64,000 nt of DNA from Crocinitomicaceae bacterium (GTDB lineage: Bacteria; Bacteroidota; Bacteroidia; Flavobacteriales_D; Crocinitomicaceae). A model generated the notes under the pieces. It had not been told where the DNA came from. It did no database searches and saw nothing but the letters and a program-made list of their open reading frames with translations. Shown piece after piece: positions 9,581 to 12,738 of the stretch. The stretch spans positions 1 to 64,000 of the forward strand of contig JAIPAL010000003.1 in NCBI GenBank assembly GCA_021740085.1, in the 5' to 3' direction. Numbering within the stretch: position 1 is the first letter of the stretch; each line of letters opens with the position of its first letter. The position numbers and the translations under genes were made by a program.

Positions 9581-9642
9581 GCGCATTGGGCATTCCAAGC
9601 ATAGAACCTCAACTGCTCTGCAGTTGTAGGGTTTTTCCTTTT
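9581..9642. repeat. Direct repeat with hairpin, copy 2
   Basis: This lies 122 bp after copy 1. It has the same leading 21 bp and then CAACTGC-TCT-GCAGTTG followed by TAGGGTTTTTCCTTTT. The outer base pair of the stem differs from copy 1 (C-G instead of A-T) with both sides changed, which suggests that the hairpin itself is conserved. Confidence 0.6.
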
Positions 9643-9675
9643 AAATTGCTTTTTAAAGTAAACTTTAATCGCTTT

Positions 9676-9708
9676 AAAAGGAAAAACCCAGCACTTTCGT
9701 GCTGGGTT
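9676..9708 (-). terminator. Rho-independent terminator of tRNA-Arg
   Basis: The plus strand reads AACCCAGCAC-TTTC-GTGCTGGGTT (9685-9708), a perfect 10-bp stem. On the minus strand the loop is GAAA (a GNRA-type tetraloop), and a T-rich run (TTTTTCCTTTT) follows the stem, ending near 9676. It begins just 7 bp after the 3' end of the tRNA. Confidence 0.75.
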
Positions 9709-9715
9709 CCTTTTG

Positions 9716-9789
9716 TGACCCCGGAGGGATTCTAACCCCCAACCCTCAGAGCCGAAATCTGATGCGCTATACAGTTGCGCCACGGAGCC
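9716..9789 (-). tRNA. tRNA-Arg(TCG)
   Basis: The minus strand folds into a full cloverleaf of 74 nt: acceptor GGCTCCG/CGGGGTC (with two G-U pairs), D stem GCGC/GCGC, anticodon stem TCAGA/TCTGA with loop TTTCGGC (anticodon TCG, reading CGA and probably other CGN codons for arginine), variable loop GGGTT, T stem GGGGG/CCCTC and T loop TTAGAAT. CCA is not encoded. Two nearly invariant bases are changed together: the D loop reads AACTGTATA (position 19 is U not G) and the T loop has A at position 56 instead of C, so the 19-56 tertiary pair is U-A. It has its own promoter and terminator, so it is probably expressed. Confidence 0.85.
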
Positions 9790-9801
9790 GATTTGAGATT
9801 G

Positions 9802-9832
9802 CAAATGTAGTGCGAACGAACGAATATTACAA
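9802..9832 (-). promoter_or_regulatory. Promoter TTG-N20-TACATTTG of the tRNA gene
   Basis: On the minus strand TTG (9832-9830) and TACATTTG (9809-9802) are separated by 20 bp. The -7 element ends 12 bp before the first base of the mature tRNA, leaving a short 5' leader for RNase P. Confidence 0.65.
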
Positions 9833-9888: not shown

Positions 9889-9906
9889 TTGCCAAATCAC
9901 CCTGCT

Positions 9907-12738
9907 ATGAAATTATTTTTACTCGGATTCACCTTTTTATTATCGATTTTTGGGACTTATTCTCAAGGGATTAATTGGTCATCCTTTATTGATTCTATCC
10001 CTTCGCTTTCTTCCCCAAGAGCCTTTGATCTAAATCAAGATGGAATTAAAGATATTATTTATGGAGGAGGAACCGATGGTGTTGCTAGTAACAATGGTAT
10101 AATGGCAATTAATGGAGCGAATGGGAATTTACTTTGGAAAAGGCCTTCTAGAAATGAGGTTTTTGGCAGCGCTATTTTTATGGATATTACAAATGATGGG
10201 ATTCGTGATGTTTTTATTTCGGGACGGCAAGCACAACTGCTAGCGATTAATGGAGCAACAGGCGCCTTGTTATGGGATTACTTTCCTTACAATGTAAATC
10301 CAGGGGACAGTGGCCTATATAATTTTTATAACCCTCAATTTATAGACGATGTTACCGGTGATAACAAGCCAGATTTATTAGTCGCAAATGGTGGAGATCA
10401 CACCGCTCCTGAATGGGAAACCAACAGGCCTCCTGGTCATTTAATGGTAATTAACTCAATGAATGGCCAATTAATATCAAAAGCAGTTGTTCCTGATAGT
10501 GCAGAAACATATTGTTCTGCGATTGTTGCTGACATACAAAACAATGGCGTTAAGTGGGTGTTGTATGGTACCGGCGGGGAAACCTTAGGCGGTTCATTTT
10601 GGGCCTGCCCTTTAGCCAGTTTATTACTGAATTCACTGGCGCCTTCTATCGCATTAGCAACAGATCCACAAAAAGGATTTATAGCACCCGCCGCCATGTA
10701 TAAAACATTGTCTAATCAATATGACATTGTCATACAATCTTTTTCTGGCAAGGTCACTAAAATAAAGGGGGCTGACTTTTCTACCACATGGACCTATGAT
10801 TTACCGGGCACTCAAAGCAGTGCAGAACCTGTTTTAGGAAACTTTACAGGTAATCTTTCACCCGATGTGTTTTTAGTGCTTTTTAAGGGTGTCGCACCTT
10901 CCTATACTGATTATTACCAAGTTATGCTTGATGGACAAAGTGGATTAGAAATATTTAAAGATAGTTTAGGATCCATGCATTATGCCTCTGCCAACGCAGT
11001 AGATTTAAACAATGATGGGCGAGACGAAGCCATTATTTCTCTTAATTATTTTGAGAATGGCCATTTCAAAAACAGAATTCAGCAAATAGATTTTCAAAAC
11101 AATACCATTCAACAAATTAGTACTACACAGGCAGGGGTAAATATTGGTTCTACACCATTAATCACCGATTTAGACAATGACAATTTACTGGATATTGTAT
11201 ACTTAGTTAAGAGAGATAGTATCAATCCAGTTGGATGGAAAGGAGTCTATACAAAAAGATACGAAACTAGTTCCATCACACCAAATGCTGGCATTGCGTG
11301 GGGGAGTTATTTAGGAAGTCTAAATGATGGTGTTTATACCTATGACCCTATACTTTGTGGGCCAGGTAGCGTAATTTCATCCGTTGCGATTGTACAGCCC
11401 TCTTGCAATGGTTTTGCTGATGGATCCATAACTCCAACTGTAGTTGCTGGAAATGGGCCCTACACCTATGTTTGGACGAATGGCGGAACCACGGCACAAT
11501 TAAATAATGTTGGCGCGGGATCATACACTATGCAAATCACAGACGCCCTAGGTTGTTATGAAGTGTACACGGCCATAGTTTCTGATCCGTTTATTATTTC
11601 ATTTGGAGGTATTGCCGCACCTACTTGTCCGGGAGGACTGAATGGAATGGCGACTTTAAATTCTTCAGGATGTCCTTGTATGTTTAGCACCTGTACTTTT
11701 CTATGGGAAAATGGCATAACTACCAAGCCGAACAGCACCTTAGCGGAAGGATGGAATTCTGTAAGCATCACCCATCCAAATGGTTGTGTTGTTTTAGATT
11801 CGGTATACGTGCCTTTAAGTGCACCTCTTTATGATTCGACATTAATAGTTAATGTAAGTTGCGCAGGATTCGTTGATGGTAGCATTACTGTTTTGTCAAG
11901 CGCTCCTCCCTCCGTTTTATATACTTGGTCAACAGGGTCGAGTAACAATTCAATTAATAGTGTCGCCGCTGGGAATTACCAAGTTATCATAACAGATGCT
12001 CGACCTTGTACCGACACTGTGCTCTTCACCATTGCGGAGCCGGCCATCCTCACCGCTCAAGTTGTTACGCAAAATGTTGATTGTTTTGGGAATTCAACGG
12101 GATCTTTAGAGATTTTGCCAAATGGTGGAAATGGCTATTACACCTATTTTTTTAACAGCATTCCTTCTCCAACTGCTAATTTCTCTCAATTAGCGGCAGG
12201 GCAATATATCGTATCGGTGAGTGATACCTTAGGATGTACCTCCGCAATACAAAATATTACTATTTCGCAACCACAACAATTGATCTTGAGTTTAAGTTCT
12301 ACTCCTGAAAGCGCTGCAAACGCACTTGACGGAACGGCGAGCGCAGTTGTATCGGGTGGGACGGCGCCTTACATTATTGAGTGGAACAATCTAGCAATTG
12401 GGACACCAAATGTATATTTAACACAAGGATGGTACGTTGCCAATGTTATTGATTCTAATGGCTGTGCAACAAGTGATTCTGTATTTGTTGGAGTTTCGGG
12501 TCTCAATTCATTAAGTGCCGACCAACTTTTCATGTATCCGAATCCATCAAAAGACCAAATAAACTTTCCATATGAAGTGGAGACGGTTTCCATTTATGAT
12601 CAATCGGGCGCATTAGTTCTTAAGGAGAAAAATAAATTACAAATCAATACATCCCAACTAGCAAACGGTGTTTATTCTGTACACATCGGTATTCATGGAG
12701 ATTCATCCGTCATACGCTTAATTATTTTGAATGATTAA
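9907..12738 (+). CDS. T9SS type A cargo protein with FG-GAP and SprB repeats
   Basis: The start is ATG 9907, where the signal peptide begins (MKLFLLGFTFLLSIFGTYSQ); a TTG at 9889 in frame lies next to the promoter and is unlikely. The 943-residue product has three parts. Residues about 30-460 hold FG-GAP/VCBS-type repeats with calcium-loop patterns (DLNQDGIKDI, DITNDGIRDV, DDVTGDNKPDL, DLNNDGRDEA, DLDNDNLLDI), predicted to make a beta-propeller. Residues about 485-850 hold four to five SprB-type repeats (PSCNGFADGSITPTV, GPYTYVW). The last about 75 residues are a type A sorting domain (LFMYPNPSKDQI, LANGVYSV, VIRLIIL). It is a secreted or surface-attached adhesin-like protein. Its stop overlaps the start of the next gene by 8 bp. 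Confidence 0.85.
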   Translation: MKLFLLGFTFLLSIFGTYSQGINWSSFIDSIPSLSSPRAFDLNQDGIKDIIYGGGTDGVASNNGIMAINGANGNLLWKRPSRNEVFGSAIFMDITNDGIRDVFISGRQAQLLAINGATGALLWDYFPYNVNPGDSGLYNFYNPQFIDDVTGDNKPDLLVANGGDHTAPEWETNRPPGHLMVINSMNGQLISKAVVPDSAETYCSAIVADIQNNGVKWVLYGTGGETLGGSFWACPLASLLLNSLAPSIALATDPQKGFIAPAAMYKTLSNQYDIVIQSFSGKVTKIKGADFSTTWTYDLPGTQSSAEPVLGNFTGNLSPDVFLVLFKGVAPSYTDYYQVMLDGQSGLEIFKDSLGSMHYASANAVDLNNDGRDEAIISLNYFENGHFKNRIQQIDFQNNTIQQISTTQAGVNIGSTPLITDLDNDNLLDIVYLVKRDSINPVGWKGVYTKRYETSSITPNAGIAWGSYLGSLNDGVYTYDPILCGPGSVISSVAIVQPSCNGFADGSITPTVVAGNGPYTYVWTNGGTTAQLNNVGAGSYTMQITDALGCYEVYTAIVSDPFIISFGGIAAPTCPGGLNGMATLNSSGCPCMFSTCTFLWENGITTKPNSTLAEGWNSVSITHPNGCVVLDSVYVPLSAPLYDSTLIVNVSCAGFVDGSITVLSSAPPSVLYTWSTGSSNNSINSVAAGNYQVIITDARPCTDTVLFTIAEPAILTAQVVTQNVDCFGNSTGSLEILPNGGNGYYTYFFNSIPSPTANFSQLAAGQYIVSVSDTLGCTSAIQNITISQPQQLILSLSSTPESAANALDGTASAVVSGGTAPYIIEWNNLAIGTPNVYLTQGWYVANVIDSNGCATSDSVFVGVSGLNSLSADQLFMYPNPSKDQINFPYEVETVSIYDQSGALVLKEKNKLQINTSQLANGVYSVHIGIHGDSSVIRLIILND

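Follow-up and report, generated by a model that had tools for sequence, protein, structure and literature searches.

The tertiary pair G19-C56 counts as conserved in tRNAs, and the elbow closed by positions 19 and 56 is contacted by the ribosome (through protein L5 in the P site), by RNase P and RNase Z, and by T-box RNAs. Positions 19 and 56 form a Watson-Crick pair with an exposed distal face, on which ribosomal elements, RNase P and others stack (PMC4810234). In human mitochondrial tRNA-Ser(UGA), the charging lost in the mutant G19C is regained with A19:U56 or C19:G56 (PMC10412605), so that pairing and not base identity is what matters in this mitochondrial tRNA. The bacterial arginine identity set consists of A20, C35, U/G36 and A/G73 (PMC9976931), and TruB substrates follow the consensus 53-GUUYRANYC-61 (PMC7912444). 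Our searches of the open literature turned up no account of either A19-U56 or U19-A56 in the tRNA-Arg of bacteria; older tRNA-covariation papers could mention either, and tRNA databases very likely contain such sequences.

An intact tRNA-Arg(UCG) gene with a U19-A56 elbow pair

The window (the whole stretch of 64,000 nucleotides analysed here) holds a single tRNA gene, a 74-nt tRNA-Arg(UCG) on the minus strand (9716..9789), identified by ARAGORN, by Rfam RF00005 and by direct reading. ARAGORN predicts tRNA-Arg(tcg) at 9715-9789 on the minus strand, while the Rfam match spans 9716-9789 and covers model positions 1-71 of 71, the full length, with a score of 57.8 bits (gathering cut-off 29). The tRNA reads GGCUCCG UG GCGC AACUGUAUA GCGC A UCAGA UUUCGGC UCUGA GGGUU GGGGG UUAGAAU CCCUC CGGGGUC A, with CCA unencoded, as in the majority of tRNAs of the host genome. 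Numbered against the Rfam alignment, the D loop AACUGUAUA (9768..9776, minus strand) places U19 at 9771 and the arginine identity base A20 at 9770, and the T loop UUAGAAU (9729..9735, minus strand) places A56, which covaries with U19, at 9733. The anticodon UCG (9753..9755, minus strand), assigned by direct reading and by ARAGORN, reads CGA and CGG.

The canonical G19-C56 pair is therefore replaced by U19-A56 with complementarity retained, and the agreement of ARAGORN with Infernal on RF00005 bears out the earlier note, which had described this swap in a complete cloverleaf. By direct reading every stem pairs, and the other tertiary pairs are unbroken (U8-A14, A15-U48, G18-U55 and U54-A58). 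All arginine identity bases, A20, C35, G36 and A73, are present. A pseudogene, to be recognised by broken stems, relaxed conservation and loss in relatives, is not what we see: the stems are intact, and the tRNA is identical across congeners in which the flanks cannot be aligned. Single-strand RNA folding gives z = -0.69, and folding is uninformative on the tertiary pair.

The gene had also been credited with a good promoter and terminator. The terminator stands: a strong hairpin, AACCCAGCAC-GAAA-GTGCTGGGTT, followed by the T-rich tail TTTCCTTTT (9676..9714, minus strand). The promoter holds only as a promoter-like TAnnTTTG box, TACATTTG (9802..9809, minus strand), which lies 20 nt before the tRNA start, with a TTG another 20 nt upstream; a sigma-70 scan of the upstream region found no good promoter at the proper distance. 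A sigma-70 scan is expected to be uninformative in Bacteroidota, and we take TACATTTG to be a -7 box of the Bacteroidota type (consensus TAnnTTTG). Of 79 related tRNA-Arg genes, 34 have TAnnTTTG at a distance of 10-30 nt upstream. We note two features of the neighbourhood. Immediately 3' of the terminator, at 9629-9690, lies a big imperfect palindrome (AGGGTTTTTCCTTTTAAA ... TTTAAAAGGAAAAACCC), and an ORF of 949 aa at 9889-12738, pointing away from the tRNA, looks, from its sequence, like a repeat protein that is secreted and carries a sorting tail at its C-terminus.

The host assembly comprises 2.41 Mb in 101 contigs and is 87.6% complete. Among the 27 tRNAs detected in it, G19-C56 is present in 25, including tRNA-Arg(TCT) and tRNA-Arg(CCT), and U19-A56 in two, the tRNA-Arg(TCG) of the window and a tRNA-Arg(ACG) on contig 71, the sole other CGN reader found. 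A second intact tRNA-Arg(TCG), which the earlier note had named as evidence that would count against the gene, was not found in this 87.6%-complete genome, from which a gene could be missing. Nor, under the same limit, do the 27 tRNAs include a tRNA-Arg(CCG), while CGG makes up 45 of the 530 Arg codons in the ORFs of the window. Consequently, tRNA-Arg(UCG) appears to be the sole CGG reader and seems to be needed. The genome has one argS gene, so that a single ArgRS must accept both G19-C56 and U19-A56 Arg tRNAs.

Covariation and conservation in related genomes

Scans for tRNA-Arg(NCG) left positions 19 and 56 free and fixed A20 and several loop bases, so that only loops of this kind were sampled. 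In 30 relatives, positions 19 and 56 are complementary in all 42 matches. At the level of the order, the 66 distinct sequences among the matches listed comprise 42 A-U, 12 U-A, 11 G-C and one A·C. Positions 19 and 56 are complementary in 65 of the 66; when base 56 was shuffled among these sequences 100,000 times, the number of complementary pairs averaged 31.6 and never exceeded 46. The normalised mutual information of 19-56, computed over 40 distinct full-length genes, reaches 1.0, a value shared with stem pairs. A15-U48 and G18-U55 are present in 40/40 distinct related tRNAs, a result partly fixed by the search pattern. As related sequences are not independent, these covariation figures measure consistency and not the number of events.

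Across Bacteroidota, tRNA-Arg(NCG) covaries among three states, G19-C56, A19-U56 and U19-A56. A scan of the phylum (395 genomes) gave no unpaired 19:56 combination among the approximately 155 matches listed, which were read by eye. In many Bacteroidia families, the tRNA-Arg(ACG) among these matches usually has A19-U56; in other families, and in many TCG genes, G19-C56 is the rule.

The sole mispaired real tRNA among the 66 distinct order-level sequences is an intact tRNA-Arg(ACG) with A19/C56 (G706:C40:29741-29788), from a 99%-complete genome of the host's family; it could be a stepping stone between G-C and A-U, or an error. One further match (G747:C48), the anticodon stem of which is unpaired, was dropped as a chance match.

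At the level of the genus, the tRNA region was matched in 51 of 61 genomes, the host's own included. The tRNA-Arg(UCG) of congeners is often 100% identical across species, while neither the upstream nor the downstream flank can be aligned, which points to purifying selection on the tRNA itself. U19-A56 extends through much of the host's genus and family, and related assemblies lack G19 and C56 at this gene, the observation in relatives by which the earlier note had proposed to recognise sequencing errors. That note had also taken the two changes as independent and as a sign of selection: the covariation upholds selection for pairing, and the gene is conserved and looks functional, but the pair is an inherited state and not the product of two fresh changes.

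Distribution among tRNAs and lineages

In 30 genomes of the class scanned with 19 and 56 free, essentially all tRNAs listed carry G19-C56, except Arg(ACG). A generic tRNA pattern with A or U at both positions retrieved 45 tRNAs from 149 class genomes, every one of them A-U or U-A, with neither A-A nor U-U among them; Arg(ACG) makes up most of the 45, next to a few Gly(UCC), a single Arg(UCU) and a single Ala(UGC). The same pattern, applied to 299 genomes of the Clostridia phylum, had no match beyond the starting genome. The statement that G19-C56 is nearly invariant outside mitochondria thus keeps its validity for other tRNAs and for the Clostridia phylum tested, but has to be given up for CGN-reading Arg tRNAs of the Bacteroidia, with A19-U56 usual for ACG in many of them. 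The rarity suggested for the single gene is likewise not borne out, since U19-A56 runs through much of the genus and family and A19-U56 is common. We note that A19-U56 tRNA-Gly(UCC) occurs in three Bacteroidia families, and that G104 has A19-U56 in tRNA-Arg(UCU) and tRNA-Ala(UGC) (genomes noted for these cases together: G299, G307, G416, G420, G513 and G104); elbow-pair swaps therefore extend beyond Arg(NCG).

Among the species genomes scanned for the U19-A56 form, about 85,000 in number, at least 118 stretches hold it. Among the matches listed, ARAGORN calls tRNA-Arg(ACG) or (TCG), and the sources are Flavobacteriales, Bacteroidales (Paludibacteraceae, Salinivirgaceae, Prevotellaceae and Dysgonomonas), a Saprospiraceae MAG and uncultured Clostridia. 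The tRNA-Arg of the uncultured Clostridia has CCA encoded, and its V-loop/T-arm is identical to that of Bacteroidota, with a Clostridia-like anticodon arm. One such genome, G759, has an ordinary G19-C56 tRNA-Arg(ACG) alongside the U19-A56 gene, and a U19-A56 TCG gene is present in just 2 of the 121 genomes of its order. Either an independent origin or lateral transfer would account for the Clostridia gene. On the Clostridia contig CALVMK010000012.1 (L136), a divergent second tRNA-Arg(TCG)-like gene (gctcccatggtgaaatggatatcacaatcgacttcgg...) with a canonical UUC in its T loop adjoins the U19-A56 gene. The stretch examined of the viral contig IMGVR_UViG_3300003319_000064 (L236:1127-11778) holds 22 tRNA genes, and here U19-A56 is found in tRNA-Arg(ACG), in tRNA-Gln(TTG) and apparently in tRNA-Cys(GCA).

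On a tree of ArgRS from 28 genomes, the 19-56 state changes a minimum of eight times for ACG and five times for TCG. These genomes were chosen to cover the states and are not a random sample, several branches are weak, and the Clostridia branches, which are implausibly long, were used solely for this minimum count. The pair 19-56 has thus switched several times, a statement to which we attach no exact number.

Explanations for the switch and comparison with known systems

With a probability of roughly 0.8, we regard tRNA-Arg(UCG) as an ordinary, probably essential elongator tRNA. Its elbow pair would be drifting from one isosteric Watson-Crick pair to another, with selection acting on pairing and not on base identity. 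Presumably the tRNA is expressed and functions in translation: it would be charged by the cell's single ArgRS and would read CGA and CGG, with U19-A56 closing the elbow in place of G19-C56. The outer face of 19-56 serves mainly for stacking, so A-U and U-A can replace G-C, and the choice among these pairs is presumably close to neutral. On this reading, the pair in the CGN-reading Arg tRNAs of the Bacteroidia has drifted several times among G-C, A-U and U-A, while selection kept complementarity. The stacking role (PMC4810234) and the rescue in mitochondrial tRNA-Ser(UGA) (PMC10412605) together lead us to read the switches as such drift under selection for pairing. Two features are left unexplained by neutral drift alone, namely the far more frequent switching in CGN-reading Arg tRNAs than in other tRNAs of the same genomes, and the near-confinement to Bacteroidia among the groups tested.

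An unlikely alternative is an adaptive swap in which the ArgRS of the lineage evolved together with its tRNAs towards a preference for, or tolerance of, A19-U56 or U19-A56, so that 19-56 became a new identity element or anti-determinant. Among synthetases, ArgRS stands out in that it reads a base of the D loop. Switching is concentrated in tRNA-Arg, Arg(NCG) with U19-A56 is seen in distant groups, and A20, which adjoins the elbow, is the main arginine determinant and is directly contacted by ArgRS (PMC9976931). However, one ArgRS must charge G19-C56 tRNA-Arg(TCT/CCT) and U19-A56 tRNA-Arg(NCG) in the same cell, and A19-U56 also occurs in a few non-Arg tRNAs (Gly-UCC, Ala-UGC). Moreover, no residue of the N-terminal tRNA-binding region convincingly tracks the 19-56 state across 28 ArgRS, the single discriminating N-terminal column varying inside both groups, and a change of ArgRS specificity is therefore disfavoured. 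As an observation in its own right, the host ArgRS (L248) has an apparent family insertion at residues about 177-250, which splits the TIGR00456 match in two; several other families of the order lack it.

The possibility that the swap tunes modification or recognition of the elbow, which we judge quite improbable, starts from the TruB consensus (PMC7912444), which the gene's GUUAGAAUC does not match, having A56 for Y56. The consequence would be reduced or absent pseudouridine 55, with a softer elbow or avoidance of a nuclease that targets the elbow; T54 and the handling by RNase P/Z might change too. A19-U56 retains Y56 and satisfies the consensus, which fits the far commoner occurrence of A19-U56 and the rarity of the R56 forms, and predicts altered pseudouridine 55 in the U19-A56 tRNAs. 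In its widest form, and with as little probability, a purine at position 56 would let the Arg tRNAs that read CGN in some Bacteroidia, in a Clostridia lineage and in a phage escape the TruB rule. The result would be a naturally hypomodified but paired elbow that serves a specific purpose in decoding arginine codons or in withstanding an enzyme that reads the elbow. The consensus, however, derives from model enzymes, and modification is invisible in DNA. TruB itself is encoded by the host as well as by other genomes with U19-A56, and the enzyme shows no consistent change; it was found in 25 of 26 genomes searched, the genome without a match being 81% complete and one match, at a contig end, being partial, and loss of TruB was rejected as a cause. 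Finally, there is next to no chance that U19 and A56 are assembly errors or that we are dealing with a pseudo-tRNA, be it decaying or mobile. The fragmented, 87.6%-complete host assembly is what could raise this suspicion, but the occurrence of the same tRNA in dozens of independent assemblies rules out sequencing error and pseudogene alike; the paralogue tRNA-Arg(ACG) has U19-A56 too, and the stems and tertiary partners are whole, with promoter-like box and terminator in place.

A lineage with G-C, A-U and U-A in one isoacceptor group provides natural controls for whether the machines that contact the elbow read base identity or only a flat paired face, and the U19-A56 tRNAs offer a clean in vivo test of the Y56 rule of TruB. 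For Bacteroidota, a fixed G19/C56 is too strict a requirement in tRNA models and in design rules for orthogonal tRNAs.

Compared with known systems, the nearest published variants of supposedly conserved tertiary pairs, R15/A48, A54/A58 and G30-U40, are likewise isoacceptor- and lineage-specific, but are reported, in the part of that literature to which we refer, as absent from bacteria, and 19-56 is not among the variants named there. The human mitochondrial tRNA-Ser(UGA) mutants show by experiment that charging tolerates a different Watson-Crick pair in place of G19-C56 (PMC10412605); those tRNAs are, however, engineered, mitochondrial and specific for serine, and the pairs described are A19:U56 and C19:G56, with no mention of U19:A56 in the passages on them. 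With canonical bacterial tRNA-Arg(UCG/ICG) the window gene shares the cloverleaf, A20, C35, G36, A73, G18-U55, U54-A58 and A15-U48, as well as a length of 74 nt without encoded CCA, and differs in having U19-A56 where those have G19-C56. The A19-U56 tRNA-Arg(ACG) of the Bacteroidia belongs to the same isoacceptor group and has the same D loop except for base 19 and a similarly compensated elbow pair, but keeps at position 56 the pyrimidine that the U19-A56 tRNA has exchanged for a purine.
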